Shown in pieces: positions 10,137 through 19,062 of a stretch of 64,000 nucleotides of DNA. Positions within the stretch are counted from its first letter, which is position 1; every line of letters starts with the position of its first letter. A program made the position numbers and the translations under genes. The DNA is from Desulfobacterales bacterium RIFOXYA12_FULL_46_15 (GTDB lineage: Bacteria > Desulfobacterota > Desulfobacteria > Desulfobacterales > Desulfobacteraceae), in assembly GCA_001799395.1 (NCBI GenBank), contig MGTJ01000233.1:24425-88424 (forward strand), read 5' to 3'. A model generated the notes under the pieces. That model searched no databases. It was not told the DNA's origin and saw only the letters and a program-made list of their open reading frames with translations.

Positions 10137-10640
10137 ATGAAACAAGTCCTGCTTGCAATTGATGGTGATATCCCCACTGATTCTGTTTTTCAGTATGCTG
10201 TGGGGCTTTGCAGAAGAATCCAGGCGCAATTGAATATTCTGCAGTTTGTTAAGAAGAAAAGCCTTACCCAATGCATTTCTTCAACAAAAAAAAAGGTGGG
10301 GCAACTGGGCAAACTTCTTGAAGACTCTTTTGCAGGAGTTGCATTTGCAGAAGAAGGAGTACCCCATCTGGCAGACGAATTCCTGCCAGATGTATCGGAT
10401 TCTTTAAGAGAAATGATCAAAGGCGACCATGCCGGGATATCGCTTGAAGTGATTGTAAGCAGCGGCAGTCCTGAAAAAGAATTGTCAAATTATATTGATG
10501 ACCATCAGGATATCGTGTTGACGATTTTTGATCCATCCAGGGACAAACCGATCAAGGCCGGACGTTCGCGTTTGACCATCGAAGCCATAAAAAAGAAATT
10601 GAGTGTTCCCCTTGTGGTCGTGAAGGCTTCCCAAGGATGA
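10137..10640 (+). CDS. Universal stress protein-like protein
   Basis: MKQVLLAIDGDIPTDSVFQYAVGLCRRIQAQLNIL N-terminus, SRLTIEAIKKKLSVPLVVVK C-terminus (UspA-like fold signature). Confidence 0.65.
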   Translation: MKQVLLAIDGDIPTDSVFQYAVGLCRRIQAQLNILQFVKKKSLTQCISSTKKKVGQLGKLLEDSFAGVAFAEEGVPHLADEFLPDVSDSLREMIKGDHAGISLEVIVSSGSPEKELSNYIDDHQDIVLTIFDPSRDKPIKAGRSRLTIEAIKKKLSVPLVVVKASQG

Positions 10641-10692: not shown

Positions 10693-12702
10693 TCAAATTT
10701 CTTTCAGAGCCAGGCATAGGATTTCATCCAGTTCGCCGGCCGTGATGATATGAATATCTTTTTTAAGATCTTCAGGAAGGGTTGAAAGTTCCCCTTTGTT
10801 TTTTAAAGGGAAAATGACGGTCTTGATACCGGCCATTTTTGCAGCCAGAAGTTTTTCCTTGATACCGCCCACCGGAAGAATCCTACCGCTCAAGGTCAAT
10901 TCCCCGGTCATGGCAATATCTCTTCTGCAAGGTATAGCCTTGAGCAATGACAAGAGCGCAATCGCAATGGTGAGACCTGCCGATGGGCCGTCTTTGGGGA
11001 TGGCCCCGGCCGGGACATGGATGTGAATATCCTGCTGATGGAAGAAATCCCGGGCAAGCCCAAAGGCCTCTGTATTGCTCCGGATATAACTCAAGGCTGC
11101 CTGGGCTGATTCTTTCATGACATCCCCGAGGGACCCTGTCAGGATAAGCCGGTTGGTACCCATCATTTTTGTTGCCTCGACAAAGATGATTTCACCCCCG
11201 GTTTCCGTCCAGGCAAGACCTGTTGAGCATCCTATCCTGTCTTTAGCGCCTGCAATTTCAAAATGATACTGGCTTGGACCCAGAAGGTCTTCCACGATTT
11301 TTTCAGTGATATCCAGAGAATCTGGAGCAATAGTGTTTTTGCCTATCTTTCGGGTAATTTTTCTGCAGATGGAAAATATTTTTCTTTCAAGTTCCCTGAG
11401 TCCTGCCTCCCGGGTATGTTCCAGGATCATCTTTCTAAGTGCTTTTTCGGTAAATTTAAGGGAAAACCGGCTCAGGCCGGAATCCTCTATTGCCGTTGGG
11501 ATCAAATGTCTTTCTGCAATATGGACTTTTTCATCAACTGTATATCCGGACATGGAAATGACCTCGAACCGGTCGAGAAGGGGACGAGGGATTTGGCTGA
11601 CGGTATTGGCTGTTGCAATGAACATGACTCTGGAAAGATCAAAGGGAACATCCAGATAATGATCAATGAACTGGGAGTTCTGCTGGGGGTCAAGCACTTC
11701 AAGAAGAGCTGATGCCGGGTCCCCTTTAAAATCCTGGCCGATTTTATCGATTTCATCCAGCATAAAAACCGGGTTGCTTGATTCCACGCGTCGTATTCCC
11801 TGGATGATCCTGCCGGAAAGCGCCCCGACATAAGATCGCCGATGGCCCCGGATATCGGCTTCATCCTTCATCCCTGCAAGGGATATCCGGACAAATTTAC
11901 GTTCCAGGCTCCTGGCAATGGATTGCCCAAGGGAAGTTTTTCCAATTCCGGGAGGCCCGGTAAAGCAGATGACCGGGCTTTTTGAATGGATCACCCCGGT
12001 CTTTTTCGATAGAGCACTTTTGACGGTTGATCGGATTTCATCCAGTTTCAGGGGTTTGGCAATAAAATGGAAAGATCCTCTTTTAATTGCATCAACCGCT
12101 GTCATAACCGTTGCATAACCGGTTATGATAATGACTTCAGTGCCAGGGCTGTTTCTTTTAATCATATCGAGAAGCATCAGGCCATCCACCTTATCCATTT
12201 TAAGATCTGTAACAACAAGATCAAAATGCTTTTTTGTTAGTCTTTCCAAAGCATCGCTGCCGCTTGAGTCCATTTCAACTTCATAGCCTTCCTTTGAAAG
12301 GACGTGGGACAGATTCATCCGGGTCATTTTTTCATCATCCACAACCAGGATGGTATTTTTTTGGGACAGCTTCATCTGTCGCACAGCCAGATGTTCCAGA
12401 ATTCTTTCCTTAATCTCGTCCAGGCCGTAATGTGCTTTGTTGAGGATGGCTTCCGCCCGGTCTATGTCCAGGTTGTCGTCGGTGAAACGGTTCCATGGAA
12501 GGGTGGTCAGATAATCAATATAATTGATACCGATGGTATATTCGGCTGAAGAAGGGCTGATTTTAAAAAGACGGTCCACTTCCTTGAGAATAATAGTTTC
12601 AACGGGTTCAGGCATGTTGATATCCAGGACAGTCTGTCTTAATTCATCAATTTCGCCGGTTTGGTCTTCCTGTTCGGATTCTTTTTTAAAGAAACGTTTC
12701 AT
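10693..12702 (-). CDS. Lon-type (S16) AAA+ protease with inserted response-regulator receiver domain, lacking the N-terminal LON/PUA-like domain
   Basis: Lon helical segment, then REC (TILVVDDE...VVTDLKM...IITGYAT...AKPLKLDE), then GPPGIGKTSLGQSIARSL...RGHRRSYVGALSGRIIQGI...PVFMLDEIDKIG...; catalytic PKDGPSAG and GGIKEKLLAAKMAG. Confidence 0.93.
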   Translation of the reverse strand: MKRFFKKESEQEDQTGEIDELRQTVLDINMPEPVETIILKEVDRLFKISPSSAEYTIGINYIDYLTTLPWNRFTDDNLDIDRAEAILNKAHYGLDEIKERILEHLAVRQMKLSQKNTILVVDDEKMTRMNLSHVLSKEGYEVEMDSSGSDALERLTKKHFDLVVTDLKMDKVDGLMLLDMIKRNSPGTEVIIITGYATVMTAVDAIKRGSFHFIAKPLKLDEIRSTVKSALSKKTGVIHSKSPVICFTGPPGIGKTSLGQSIARSLERKFVRISLAGMKDEADIRGHRRSYVGALSGRIIQGIRRVESSNPVFMLDEIDKIGQDFKGDPASALLEVLDPQQNSQFIDHYLDVPFDLSRVMFIATANTVSQIPRPLLDRFEVISMSGYTVDEKVHIAERHLIPTAIEDSGLSRFSLKFTEKALRKMILEHTREAGLRELERKIFSICRKITRKIGKNTIAPDSLDITEKIVEDLLGPSQYHFEIAGAKDRIGCSTGLAWTETGGEIIFVEATKMMGTNRLILTGSLGDVMKESAQAALSYIRSNTEAFGLARDFFHQQDIHIHVPAGAIPKDGPSAGLTIAIALLSLLKAIPCRRDIAMTGELTLSGRILPVGGIKEKLLAAKMAGIKTVIFPLKNKGELSTLPEDLKKDIHIITAGELDEILCLALKEI
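12004..12357 (-). other. Receiver (REC) domain inserted within the Lon-like protein
   Basis: Residues about 116-233; acidic pocket VVDDE, phosphoacceptor Asp about residue 166 (codon 12205-12207), T/S in IITGYAT, conserved K in AKP. Confidence 0.9.
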
Positions 12703-13010
12703 CGGGTTTGCCTCATATTATAATTGCCGGATATCTACTCCGGGTGATTTGTGAAGTCAAGAAAAAACCAGGGGCTTTTTATAAGTCAAGAATTGATAAT
12801 CCGTTGAAATTATAGCAAAAAAATTAAAATTCGTTGCAAATCGTAACATTGCATTGTCAAGTGCAATATCGTCTAACTCCCTATTGTTAAAGACAAATTT
12901 ATCATATTTAGTATTAAGGTTGCATTGTGAAACAAAACTGAGGTTCAATTGAATGCCTGTTTTTTGATGAATCAAATCTGATGACCTGTGTTTCTTAGGC
13001 GTTCAGGATC

Positions 13011-13027
13011 TTGGTATGCATTTTGCT
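13011..13027 (+). promoter_or_regulatory. Sigma54-type -24/-12 promoter candidate
   Basis: TTGGTATGCATTTTGCT: GG-N10-GC and TTGC -12 element; 57 nt upstream of the ATG at 13084. Confidence 0.65.
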
Positions 13028-13083: not shown

Positions 13084-13641
13084 ATGGCATTTTTAAATTC
13101 ATTAAAAACAAAATTACAGATATTTAATAAAAAAGTGGATGATTATCAGGAAGCCATCACTTTTTCAGAAGCCGGTATAAACACCTCCAACCAGGGAGTG
13201 CAGACCCTGACCTGTGCAGAGAACAAAGGCCGTAATATATTGGTTGCCACCCATGAGAGCAGGTTTTCTGATGATATGGTTTCCTATGCCCTTGAAATGG
13301 CCGGCCGGATGAATTACGGTATCATCGCAGTGAATGCCGCCAATATCACCCATGACCTTACCGAGTTTTTTTCAACCACCCATGATAAATTGTTTGCAGA
13401 TTTCAAAGAGATTTCTGACAGGAATGTCGAAGTGTTTCGTGCCAAAGCCATTGGTCAGGGTCTTAAATTTGCCCATACCGTTCATTTTTCAAATATGGAT
13501 CATGCCCTTATCGATATTGCAAAAGAATGTGGTGAAATCGAGTTTATCATTTCCGAAAACAAGGAACCGGCAAAAGCCAGGGGAGTGGTTGGAAATGAAA
13601 AACGGATTGCCCAGCGTCTATGTGTCTATTCCATGAATTAA
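13084..13641 (+). CDS. USP-like protein with N-terminal helical extension
   Basis: aaaaggaagcatt RBS before MAFLNSLKTKLQIFNKKVDDYQEAITFSEAG...; GRNILVATHESRFSDDMVSYALEMAGRMNYGIIAVN is USP-like; ORF track start at 12988 lies inside the promoter region. Confidence 0.6.
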   Translation: MAFLNSLKTKLQIFNKKVDDYQEAITFSEAGINTSNQGVQTLTCAENKGRNILVATHESRFSDDMVSYALEMAGRMNYGIIAVNAANITHDLTEFFSTTHDKLFADFKEISDRNVEVFRAKAIGQGLKFAHTVHFSNMDHALIDIAKECGEIEFIISENKEPAKARGVVGNEKRIAQRLCVYSMN

Positions 13642-13780: not shown

Positions 13781-15595
13781 ATGACACCTGAAATGATGAT
13801 GACAATGATTGTCCTTGTTTTTGTTATCTGTTTATTTATTTTTGAATGGGTCAGGGTGGATGTGGTGGGGATCATGATGATGGTGCTTTTGCCCATATTA
13901 GGCCTTGTCAGCCCTAAAGAAGCTTTTTCAGGTCTTGCAGGCAATGCAGTCTGTTCCATCATTGCCGTAATTATCATTGGCGCAGGCCTTGATAAAACCG
14001 GAGTGATGAACAAGGTGGCAAAGCCCATCATGGCCCTGGCCGGCAATAGCGAAAGCAAGGTGATTCTTTTGATTGCCGGAGCCGTGGGCACCATATCCAG
14101 CATGATGCAGAATATAGGTGCAGCAGCCTTGTTTATGCCTGTGACCCAGAGAATATCCAAACGCCTGGGAATCCCTACATCAAGGGTTCTCATGCCCATG
14201 GGATTCTGTGCCATTATCGGCGGTACCATCACCCTGGTTGGGGCCAGTCCCACCATTATTCTAAATGATCTGATGGTGGTGGGCGGGCAGAAACTGGAAC
14301 CCTTCGGCCTTTTTACCCAAACGCCCATCGGTATCTGCCTAACGCTGTCTGCACTTGTTTATTTTGTGGTTTTCGGCAAATTGATCCTTCCGGCCAATAC
14401 CGGCCAGTTTAATAAGGGGGCTTCCGAACTTTTAATCAAGGAATACCAGGGGGTCAATAATATTATCGAACTTCATGTGCCGGAAGGAAAAGGGATTACA
14501 GGACTCCTGGATGATCTGAATATCCGGCCTAAATTCCTGGTGACGGTGATCGGCATCAGTTCTCCTTCCAACAGGACTACCAATCATGTTCCCCACAGTT
14601 ATGAGTCGATTTGTCCCAATGATGATGTTGCCGTGGTCGGCAAAAGGGAAAACATCGAACAACTGGCCAGGGAATATAGCTGGATAATTAAAGATACCCT
14701 TGAAACTTTTGCAGACTCCCTGGCCAACACTAATGCTGGCATGGCCGAAGTAGTTGTTTCACCCAGATCCGAACTTATCGGCAAAACATTGAATGAAGTG
14801 GATTTTAAAGAACTTTTCGGGTTAAATCCCCTGGTTCTGTTTAAAGATAATAAAAAATATTATAGCGGGCTGACCAATATCCGGTTGAGTATGGGAGACA
14901 CACTCCTGCTTCAGGGACCATGGGAAAAATTTCATATTCTGAAAAACAGGCCCCAGCCAAGGGCTCTGATTTTTGCATCCCCTCTGGAAGGAGAAATCCT
15001 TCGTCCTCAAAAAGCGGTTCTTGCCGTAGCCTGGTTTGCCGTTGCCCTGTTTCAGGTTATTTGCTTTGATACCACCTTATCCGTAGCCCTGATGTCAGGC
15101 GCTCTGGGTATGATCATCACTGGAGTTTTGACCATTGACGAGGCCTATGGGGCAGTGGACTGGATGACGGTTTTTCTATTGGCAGGCTTGATTCCCCTGG
15201 GCATTGCCTTTGAAAAAAGCGGGACAGCGGCATTCATTGCCCAGACCGTTCTTGGTTTTATCGGAACACCGTCCCCCATTCTTCTGCTTACGGTGATTGG
15301 AATCATGACCACCTTTTTCACCCTGGTGATTTCCAATGTCGGCGCTACTGTTCTTCTGGTTCCTCTGTGCATGAACATGGCCATCATGGCAGGCGGTGAT
15401 CCGAGAATGGCAGCGCTGGTGGTGGGCCTTTCCGCTTCCAACAGCTTTGTTCTGCCCACCCATCAGGTCAATGCCCTTGTCATGCGGCCCGGCGGGTACA
15501 GGACAGTAGATTATGCAAAAGCAGGATCCATCATGACGATTCTTTTCCTTTTTGTGGAACTGACCATGATTTATTTCTTTTATGGAATTAAATAA
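13781..15595 (+). CDS. SLC13/DASS-family anion permease with internal TrkA-C (RCK_C) domain
   Basis: Hydrophobic DASS halves (GGTITLVGASPTIILNDLM; NVGATVLLVPLCMNMAIMAGGDPRMAALVVGLSASNSFVLPTHQVNAL) flanking hydrophilic RCK_C-like segments (RLSMGDTLLLQGPWEKF). Confidence 0.85.
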   Translation: MTPEMMMTMIVLVFVICLFIFEWVRVDVVGIMMMVLLPILGLVSPKEAFSGLAGNAVCSIIAVIIIGAGLDKTGVMNKVAKPIMALAGNSESKVILLIAGAVGTISSMMQNIGAAALFMPVTQRISKRLGIPTSRVLMPMGFCAIIGGTITLVGASPTIILNDLMVVGGQKLEPFGLFTQTPIGICLTLSALVYFVVFGKLILPANTGQFNKGASELLIKEYQGVNNIIELHVPEGKGITGLLDDLNIRPKFLVTVIGISSPSNRTTNHVPHSYESICPNDDVAVVGKRENIEQLAREYSWIIKDTLETFADSLANTNAGMAEVVVSPRSELIGKTLNEVDFKELFGLNPLVLFKDNKKYYSGLTNIRLSMGDTLLLQGPWEKFHILKNRPQPRALIFASPLEGEILRPQKAVLAVAWFAVALFQVICFDTTLSVALMSGALGMIITGVLTIDEAYGAVDWMTVFLLAGLIPLGIAFEKSGTAAFIAQTVLGFIGTPSPILLLTVIGIMTTFFTLVISNVGATVLLVPLCMNMAIMAGGDPRMAALVVGLSASNSFVLPTHQVNALVMRPGGYRTVDYAKAGSIMTILFLFVELTMIYFFYGIK

Positions 15596-15726: not shown

Positions 15727-17181
15727 ATGATTAACGATACAATACCCCCCATGAAATTTAACCTCAGACAGAAAATTTTTCTTCATTTCCTTATTTTTAT
15801 GGTGGTGAACTGCGCCATATGGTTTTTCAGCTATTTCAGCAATTCAACCATCAACCAGAAATTAAATATTATTGAGAAAAAAAAAGAGCTTCTGGATACG
15901 GTGCTTGAGGCCCGGCGGTATGAAAAGAATTTCTTTTTAAGAAACAGCAAAAGCGATCTTCAACTGGCGATTTCATATATTGAAAAAACTGCAGAAAAAC
16001 AAAATATCATTGAGAGTAATTTTTCAGAGCTTCTGGAAGATAAAGAATCGGTCAGAAAAAGAACTGAAATCATTCACAATTATAAAAATAACCTGGAAAA
16101 ATTATATGATGCCTATTCCAATGCGGAAATAAGTGGGGAAAACTCACTTCAATCAGAGGAAATCCATTTCTTACAGGAGGCGGTAACAGAAATCGGGCGG
16201 GTACTGACAACAGATATCGAAGAAGTGGAAAGACGTGAACGGGAAAGGGTTTTAAACCTGCTCAACAGATCGAGAATCTATCTTATTACTTCACTCTTAT
16301 CTCTTTTTGTATTGTCGATTCTGACAGCTTTTTTCCTTGTCAAAAATGTGAATCGCCCGTTGAAATCCATTGAAAAGAGCATACAGCAGATTGTCAGCGG
16401 AGATTTTAATAAGATTCCTAAAATAAAGACCGGTGACGAGTTTGAATCTCTTGCCGACAGCCTTAATGATATGATCGAAGAATTGGGCAGAAGGAAGGAT
16501 CAGCTTGTCCAGGCGGAAAAGATGTCTTCACTCGGTACCCTGACATCGGGAGTGGCCCATGAACTCAATAACCCCTTGAATAATATTTCAACCTCCATCC
16601 AGATTATCAGGGAAGAACTGGATGATCCGGATATGGCATTTAAAAGAACTCTGCTGTTAGAGGCTGAAGAGCAGATCGACAGGGCAAGGGATATCATCAG
16701 GGCATTGCTGGAATTTTCAAGACAGAGCGATTTTCTGATTGAAAAGGTAATTTTTAAAAACCTTGTCCAGAGCACCATGCATCTAATCAGCGGGGAAATC
16801 CCTTCCAATATTGAAGTAACCATTGACGTGCCGGACACCCTCAGCGGGAAGATGGACCCCAGAAGGGTTCAGCAGGTTTTGCTGAACCTGATTATCAATG
16901 CGGTTTATGCCATGGAAAGGGGCGGAAGCTTAATACTTTCGGCGTTTAAGGATGAAGAAAAGGCTCTCTTTGTTTTTAAAGTAGCGGATACTGGTGAGGG
17001 AATTCCAAAGGAAAACCTTGTCAGAATATTTGATCCGTTTTTTACAACCCGGGAAGTCAGCAAAGGATCCGGGCTGGGCCTGTCCATCAGCCACGGTATC
17101 ATTGAGCAGCATGGCGGAACGATTCATGTGGACAGTTTGGTTGGGAAAGGGACCGTTTTTACGGTCAGTCTGCCGGATTGA
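15727..17181 (+). CDS. Membrane sensor histidine kinase (HAMP, HisKA, HATPase_c)
   Basis: SSLGTLTSGVAHELNNPLNNI H-box, NLIINAVYAM N-box, DTGEGIP and GSGLGLSISHGIIEQHGG G-boxes. Confidence 0.95.
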   Translation: MINDTIPPMKFNLRQKIFLHFLIFMVVNCAIWFFSYFSNSTINQKLNIIEKKKELLDTVLEARRYEKNFFLRNSKSDLQLAISYIEKTAEKQNIIESNFSELLEDKESVRKRTEIIHNYKNNLEKLYDAYSNAEISGENSLQSEEIHFLQEAVTEIGRVLTTDIEEVERRERERVLNLLNRSRIYLITSLLSLFVLSILTAFFLVKNVNRPLKSIEKSIQQIVSGDFNKIPKIKTGDEFESLADSLNDMIEELGRRKDQLVQAEKMSSLGTLTSGVAHELNNPLNNISTSIQIIREELDDPDMAFKRTLLLEAEEQIDRARDIIRALLEFSRQSDFLIEKVIFKNLVQSTMHLISGEIPSNIEVTIDVPDTLSGKMDPRRVQQVLLNLIINAVYAMERGGSLILSAFKDEEKALFVFKVADTGEGIPKENLVRIFDPFFTTREVSKGSGLGLSISHGIIEQHGGTIHVDSLVGKGTVFTVSLPD

Positions 17182-17199: not shown

Positions 17200-18552
17200 A
17201 TGAAAAAACAGATTCTGATTATTGAAGATGAAGAAATCGCCCGCAGAAACCTTGAACATATTCTTGAGAAAGAGGGCTATAACGTCATTGCCGTGGATAG
17301 CGGCACCAAAGGACTGACCCTGGTCAAATCCAGAAGCTTTGATCTGATTATTACCGATTATAAAATGAAAAAAATAGACGGCCTCCAGGTTTTGGAGCAA
17401 AGCCGTAAACTTCAACCATATACCGAAGTGATCCTGATTACGGGATATGCAACGGTTGACAGTGCTGTCACCGCCATGAGAGAAGGGGCATACCATTATA
17501 TCGCAAAACCGTATAAAATCGATGAGGTCCGGCGGATTATCCGGGAAGCACTTTTAAAAAGATCCCTTCAACTGGAAAATCTTGCTCTCAAAGATGCCAT
17601 GAAAAAAGAAGTTCAACCGCCCTTCATCATCGGCAACAGCCCGGCCATGAATGAAGTTAAAAAAAGTATTACGCGGATTGCAAAAACCGATATCAGTGTT
17701 TTGATACTGGGCGAAAGCGGAACCGGCAAGGAACTGGTGGCCAAATCCATCCACAACCAGAGCAATCGGAGCGGCTATGAACTGGTGGCCTTCAATTGCG
17801 GGTCTTTTTCCGAAGAACTTATGGCCAATGAGCTGTTCGGTCATGAAAAAGAGGCGTTTACAGGAGCGGGCAAGACCAAGAAAGGGCTTTTTGAGTTTGC
17901 GGATAAGGGAACGGTTTTTTTTGATGAAATCGGTGACATGCCTCTGACCATGCAAGTCAAACTTTTAAGGGTATTACAGGAAAAAGAACTCATGAGAGTA
18001 GGGGGTACAAGCACCATTCCCGTGGATTTAAGATTCATCGCCGCCACCCACAGGGATCTCAGGCACGAGGTGGAAAAGGGAACATTCCGGCAGGACCTTT
18101 ATTACAGACTGAACGTGGTGGCCATTCAACTGCCTCCGCTGACGGAACGGCATGGAGATATTCCATTGCTGGCTTATCATTTTCTTGGAAAAAAAAGCCG
18201 GGAGATGGGCAAGGATATTAAAGAAATCGATCGTGCGGCCATGGATTATCTCATTCAATACAGTTGGCCCGGCAATGTCAGGGAGCTTGAAAACGTCATT
18301 GAAAGGGCGGTTGCCATGGGAACCGGTGATGTGATCCATCCGGAATCGCTTCCGGATCATATTACCCAGCTTGCCATTGAAACTTACCGGGTAACCCCTG
18401 ACGGTAAGATTCCCACCTTAAAGGAACAGGAAAAAAAATACATACAATGGGTTCTTGAAAAAACAAACTGGAACAGATCCAAAGCTGCCGATATCATGGA
18501 GATCGACCGCGTTTCGCTCTGGAGAAAAATAAAGGCGTTTGAACTGGAATAA
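17200..18552 (+). CDS. Sigma54-dependent NtrC/AtoC-family response regulator
   Basis: REC domain (IIEDEEIARRNL...ITDYKM), AAA+ GESGTGKELVAKSIH, NELFGHEKEAFTGA (GAFTGA-type), C-terminal Fis-like HTH (NRSKAADIMEIDRVSLWRKIKAF). Confidence 0.96.
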   Translation: MKKQILIIEDEEIARRNLEHILEKEGYNVIAVDSGTKGLTLVKSRSFDLIITDYKMKKIDGLQVLEQSRKLQPYTEVILITGYATVDSAVTAMREGAYHYIAKPYKIDEVRRIIREALLKRSLQLENLALKDAMKKEVQPPFIIGNSPAMNEVKKSITRIAKTDISVLILGESGTGKELVAKSIHNQSNRSGYELVAFNCGSFSEELMANELFGHEKEAFTGAGKTKKGLFEFADKGTVFFDEIGDMPLTMQVKLLRVLQEKELMRVGGTSTIPVDLRFIAATHRDLRHEVEKGTFRQDLYYRLNVVAIQLPPLTERHGDIPLLAYHFLGKKSREMGKDIKEIDRAAMDYLIQYSWPGNVRELENVIERAVAMGTGDVIHPESLPDHITQLAIETYRVTPDGKIPTLKEQEKKYIQWVLEKTNWNRSKAADIMEIDRVSLWRKIKAFELE

Positions 18553-18603: not shown

Positions 18604-19062
18604 ATGAATCATACAGAAAAGAAAGCACAGGAACTGTTTACCTCCGGCTTTTTTTGTGCGGAAAGCGTTTTAAAGGCGGTTGCCTTTGAAAATGGCGTGG
18701 ATTCTGCCATGCTCCCGGCCATTGCCACAGGATTTTGCGGCGGGATGAGCCGCCATGCAGAAATGTGCGGGGCCGTTACCGGCGGTATCATGGGGCTGGG
18801 TCTTATATTCGGCCGCAATACGGTTGAAAATACTACTCAAACCTGTTATGAGGCAGTCACAAAATTTTTAAAGATGTTCAAATCGCTTAATGGGTCTTTG
18901 AACTGCAAGGATCTGATTGGGTATGATTTGGGTGTTGCAGAAGAACTGGAACAATTTCGAAAGGAAAATCCAGGATATGAAAAATGCCTCCGGTTTTCAA
19001 TGGATGCCGCATTCATGGTCCAGGAAATTATTGATCACAAAAATAATATCTTAAAACAGTGA
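18604..19062 (+). CDS. C_GCAxxG_C_C family protein
   Basis: ATGFCGGMSRHAEMCGAVTGGIMGLGLIFGR motif plus downstream Cys residues. Confidence 0.85.
   Translation: MNHTEKKAQELFTSGFFCAESVLKAVAFENGVDSAMLPAIATGFCGGMSRHAEMCGAVTGGIMGLGLIFGRNTVENTTQTCYEAVTKFLKMFKSLNGSLNCKDLIGYDLGVAEELEQFRKENPGYEKCLRFSMDAAFMVQEIIDHKNNILKQ

Follow-up and report, generated by a model that had tools for sequence, protein, structure and literature searches.

The locus raises the question of what a receiver (REC) domain is doing inside a Lon-type protease, and whether a kinase could act through it. The window, by which we mean the whole 64,000-nucleotide stretch of DNA from Desulfobacterales bacterium RIFOXYA12_FULL_46_15 analysed here, contains one ORF (REC-Lon) in which the initial annotation had recognised a Lon helical segment, a REC domain at about residues 116-233, an AAA+ module and a protease domain, with the N-terminal LON domain missing. 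The features on which we rely are collected in Table 1.

Table 1. Coordinates of REC-Lon, its domains and key residues, and its neighbourhood in the window
Feature	Position	Strand	Basis
REC-Lon gene	10693-12702	-	intact ORF, 669 aa + stop; Pfam, NCBIfam; full-length homologues in order
Residues 1-114, Lon three-helix segment and helix preceding AAA+ strand 1	12361-12702	-	phmmer to 3m6a 2-106; five helices in model
Residues 115-240, inserted REC domain	11983-12360	-	Pfam Response_reg; insertion relative to 3m6a; (beta-alpha)5 in model
Asp166, predicted phospho-acceptor, codon GAT	12205-12207	-	invariant in 70/70 REC-Lon receivers
Residues 241-464, AAA+ large and lid domains	11311-11982	-	Pfam AAA and Lon_lid
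Walker A, residues 249-257	11932-11958	-	within AAA+ domain
Residues 465-669, Lon S16 protease domain	10696-11310	-	Pfam Lon_C, 6.6e-83
Ser574	10981-10983	-	invariant
Lys617	10852-10854	-	invariant
Second small, putatively Usp-like protein, REC-Lon 3' side	10137-10640	+	homologues at REC-Lon loci L073, L096, L124, L173
Three imperfect inverted repeats, RTTGY-N5-GMAAY	12833-12847, 12853-12867, 12919-12933	.	footprint in 12 aligned intergenic regions
Predicted sigma54-type promoter, TGGTATGCATTTTGCT	13012-13027	+	faces Usp-transporter genes
Usp-like protein	13084-13641	+	Pfam Usp 1.2e-4, slightly below curated cut-off; recurs at related loci
CitMHS/DASS-type anion transporter with TrkA_C	13781-15595	+	Pfam; also present at REC-Lon loci in other families
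Partner sensor histidine kinase, HAMP-HisKA-HATPase	15727-17181	+	Pfam; full-length homologues beside distant REC-Lons
Partner sigma54-dependent response regulator, REC-AAA-HTH_8	17200-18552	+	Pfam; REC nearest to REC-Lon's genome-wide

Architecture and conservation of REC-Lon

Profile searches, alignment and modelling bear out this reading of the ORF. Pfam places Response_reg at residues 118-227 (E 1e-27), AAA at 245-383, Lon_lid at 407-456 and Lon_C at 465-667, and NCBIfam scores the protein as endopeptidase La at 721 bits against a cut-off of 608. With phmmer, residues 10-114 and 241-666 align to residues 2-106 and 107-530 of B. subtilis Lon (3m6a). Because the two halves of this alignment abut, the REC domain is a pure insertion of 126 residues (115-240) with no Lon residues lost, which corrects the earlier view that it replaces a linker; compared with Thermus Lon, a few linker residues differ. 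Relative to the B. subtilis enzyme, REC directly precedes AAA+ strand 1 and Walker A. The helix immediately before it, HYGLDEIKERILEHLAV, is one that we take to be the AAA+ Box II helix, and the insertion therefore falls within the AAA+ module. An AlphaFold2 monomer model of moderate confidence (mean pLDDT 77.8, pTM 0.65), which carries no information on gating, has a complete (beta-alpha)5 receiver at residues 117-238, between a pre-AAA helix (95-113) and AAA+ strand 1 (244-248). In Foldseek the whole model aligns to Lon chains, with TM-scores by target of up to 0.87.

REC-Lon shares with LonA (TIGR00763; 3m6a, E. coli 6u5z, Thermus 7p6u) the three-helix segment, the AAA+, lid and S16 domains and the Ser-Lys dyad, at about 50-60% identity over residues 240-667. 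It differs in the REC domain inserted ahead of AAA+ strand 1 and in having no LON N-domain, for which Pfam gave no match in REC-Lon or 33 homologues (34 proteins scanned), as the initial annotation had it. Judged by its sequence, REC-Lon is a Lon core and not a typical LonA. In placing a receiver ahead of an AAA+ module it also resembles NtrC-family sigma54 regulators (NtrC1, 1ny5), and its REC is of the NtrC type; however, its AAA+ is that of Lon rather than a sigma54-activating one, the REC lies within Lon, and its output is proteolytic instead of DNA-binding.

Both sets of catalytic residues are complete, again as first annotated. All 70 aligned REC-Lon receivers have D122, D166 and K216, position 194 (Thr194 here) is Thr or Ser in every one, and D123 is kept in 69 and replaced by Glu in the remaining one, giving the full response-regulator set of acidic pocket, phospho-Asp, Thr/Ser and Lys. 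The LonA S16 set of Walker A and B, sensor residues and Ser-Lys dyad is likewise present, with G249-G252, G254-S257, D316, E317, N366, R378, R436, S574 and K617 invariant across 34 aligned full proteins.

The N-domain is the main substrate-recognition part of LonA. Its absence from all 34 scanned members, with REC always there, would fit a receiver that acts mainly as a substrate-recognition or delivery module replacing the lost N-domain, such that phosphorylation would pick the substrate and the motor would not be switched. RssB offers a precedent: this receiver protein delivers sigmaS to the AAA+ protease ClpXP (PMC7226468). In both systems a receiver domain controls, or is predicted to control, an AAA+ protease, but RssB is a separate adaptor, whereas REC-Lon is a single chain and its protease is Lon. 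On our analysis such a delivery role is unlikely, since the REC domain sits inside the AAA+ module just ahead of Walker A, a position suiting coupling to the ATPase or to assembly.

Spread and descent of the fusion

The initial annotation had recommended a check of domains, fold and phyletic spread. Beyond the Pfam and Foldseek evidence for a REC domain inside an S16 architecture, the fusion was found in many genomes. Full-length or near full-length REC-Lons occur in at least 78 of the 389 genomes of the order, several of them complete, and in at least 48 of 395 genomes sampled phylum-wide, both counts being lower bounds owing to the E-value threshold. Ten more rows of the phylum sample (E about 1e-171 to 1e-177) align over residues 241-667 only and are ordinary Lons. 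A contig scan of named genomes found REC-Lon in Desulfobacula, Desulfobacter, Syntrophobacteraceae, Desulfovibrionaceae, Desulfomicrobiaceae and Nitrospirota MAGs, and it is this one scan, together with Rajeev 2011, that extends the family beyond Desulfobacterota. The Desulfovibrionaceae homologues L082, L084 and L088 are 49-53% identical to REC-Lon over the full length. The host genome also encodes four ordinary Lon-type proteins of 783-811 aa (G000:C95, C49, C78, C5; L002-L005).

The same junctions recur in numerous independent genomes, several complete, and dN/dS, calculated against two relatives, is about 0.07-0.15 throughout the segments that allowed a calculation. These observations refute faulty assembly, faulty annotation or gene decay as the origin of the fusion, explanations for which a frame break near residue 555 in a close relative (G013) and one stop each in two other relatives might have spoken; we give these explanations practically no credence. 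The observations also dispose of the concern, raised at the outset, that homologues without REC and a frame break at this point would mark an artefact. In G013 itself (G013:C183:75602-77606, L011) the REC-Lon frame changes between residues 554 and 563, through sequencing error or recent decay.

In a tree built without the REC columns, REC-Lons lie on one side of a branch separating them from the sampled ordinary Lons (SH-aLRT 99), a sample that left out the ordinary Lons scoring closest in the phylum-wide search. A single origin of REC-Lon is likely on this sequence evidence.

A linked kinase and sigma54 regulator

A comparable gene set is known from Desulfovibrio vulgaris Hildenborough, in which DVU3303 is a response regulator "containing a lon protease" that forms a three-component system with the histidine kinase DVU3304 and the sigma54 regulator DVU3305 (Rajeev 2011, PMC3333781). 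The REC-Lon locus belongs to this family, known from sulfate-reducing bacteria since 2011; the novelty implied by the initial annotation finds no support. That annotation was right about the architecture at this locus; it left the strand unstated (REC-Lon is on the minus strand) and overlooked the partner kinase and regulator, which lie 3-6 kb from REC-Lon. We liken REC-Lon to DVU3303 by its published description, not by sequence: each is a Lon-bearing response regulator with a linked kinase and sigma54 regulator, and the same three-gene set occurs at loci of Desulfovibrionaceae and Desulfomicrobiaceae. The arrangement differs, in that DVU3303-3305 are consecutive, whereas in the window REC-Lon and the kinase-regulator pair are divergently oriented with some 3 kb between them, and the pair follows the transporter. 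Among the targets of DVU3305 are an anion transporter and Usp-type proteins, and both kinds of gene stand under a predicted sigma54 promoter in the window, where the transporter is likely the DVU3299 counterpart. The ORF on the REC-Lon 3' side has no Pfam match and is presumably Usp-like. A putative redox protein of the C_GCAxxG_C_C family (18604-19062) directly follows the sigma54 regulator.

In the regions compared, the linkage is specific to REC-Lon. Scored as a full kinase plus a regulator of more than 45% identity, the pair lies within about 10 kb at 17/20 named REC-Lon loci and at 12 of 20 other REC-Lon regions drawn from different genomes and many families, one locus (L075 = L173) being common to both sets. 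Around ordinary Lons it was found within about 10 kb in none of 20 regions (12/20 vs 0/20, one-sided Fisher about 2e-5).

The receivers themselves are related. The partner regulator's REC is the closest in the whole genome to that of REC-Lon (118 bits vs 98 for the next), and in a REC tree REC-Lon receivers and most partner receivers are adjacent groups within a larger set (SH-aLRT 94, from few columns). Receiver helix 1 is the main kinase-docking helix. Same-locus REC pairs are 50% identical overall and 59% in helix 1, the corresponding figures with other RECs being 37% and 38%. This kinship, and the helix 1 identity above all, fits a shared kinase, and we infer that one kinase probably serves the receivers of both REC-Lon and the sigma54 regulator.

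Two kindred receivers that probably share one kinase could also belong to a feedback device, in which REC-Lon would degrade the phosphorylated partner regulator or kinase, or drain phosphate from the kinase, and so end the response. One paper treating Lon at length reportedly describes feedback within a two-component system by a protein with a receiver domain, and this favours such a role. We nonetheless consider it improbable. In D. vulgaris grown with chlorate, DVU3303-3305 are detrimental and show pairwise cofitness >0.9 (Trotter 2023, PMC10102598); a negative regulator would be expected to have fitness of the opposite sign to its partners, although the cofitness may partly reflect polarity because the three genes appear to form one operon, which weakens the point. 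A pure phosphate sink, moreover, would have no need of the invariant protease dyad.

A 381-bp intergenic region separates REC-Lon from the Usp-like gene, whose ORF is open from 12988 with an ATG at 13084, and from the transporter, kinase and regulator. The -24/-12 element TGGTATGCATTTTGCT was seen once, against 0.019 expected per shuffle of the region. A sigma54-type element lies at the equivalent place in Desulfobacula and Desulfobacter, and TGGCACGCAACTTGCT, nearer consensus, is found in other families. The three conserved inverted repeats are candidate sites for binding by the partner regulator; together with the promoter they are probably regulatory sites of this neighbouring sigma54 regulator. 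A whole-genome search with the paired repeat pattern, which excluded the GTAAC variant of the window's first site, gave no match. Desulfobacter has a second sigma54-type element, AGGCATGGTAATTGCT, 70-115 bp ahead of REC-Lon; a scan of the window found no such second element upstream of REC-Lon.

A proposed model for phosphorylation-controlled proteolysis

These data allow us to propose that REC-Lon provides the proteolytic output of a three-component system of the DVU3303-3304-3305 type, switched by a kinase through Asp166, a model that we consider probable. In this scheme the membrane histidine kinase would phosphorylate both the sigma54 regulator and Asp166 of REC-Lon. The phosphorylated regulator would drive the transporter and Usp genes. 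Phospho-Asp166 would alter how the receiver, which immediately precedes strand 1 and Walker A, is seated on the AAA+ ring. This rearrangement would switch the assembly, or the ATP-driven proteolysis, of a dedicated Lon lacking the N-domain. We hypothesise that phosphorylation more likely activates than inhibits; the structural mechanism and the substrates are hypothetical in the same way. More tentatively, though it is a serious prospect, the receiver in the AAA+ module may be an in-line phospho-clutch that directly gates ring assembly or the ATPase and, by way of a single kinase, ties proteolysis to sigma54 transcription.

Indirect support for phospho-control of the Lon machine comes from the invariant phospho-site, the REC kinship and the linked kinase-regulator pair, and gating of proteolysis by phosphorylation is our best hypothesis. 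Against the scheme, in chlorate loss of DVU3303-3305 helps, whereas loss of the target transporter DVU3299, which is important under that condition (Trotter 2023, PMC10102598), hurts, a misfit with simple activation of DVU3299. Our literature search found no phosphotransfer, ATPase or protease assay on REC-Lon, and in the literature searched direct phospho-gating of ring assembly or ATPase has been demonstrated for no Lon. Control of a Lon-type response regulator by phosphorylation is itself a published hypothesis, a need for phosphorylation in DVU3303 activity having been suggested earlier (Rajeev 2011, PMC3333781). New here are the quantified spread, the strict conservation of the phospho-site, the kinship of the receiver with that of the partner regulator, the absence of the linkage at ordinary Lon loci and the conserved sigma54-type promoter.

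Together these data point to a predicted phospho-switch built into the protease chain itself, whereas proteolysis is usually regulated by means of tags or separate adaptors. REC-Lon is widespread in sulfate-reducing lineages, including the genetically tractable Desulfovibrio, so that direct phospho-control of an AAA+ protease is open to experimental test.
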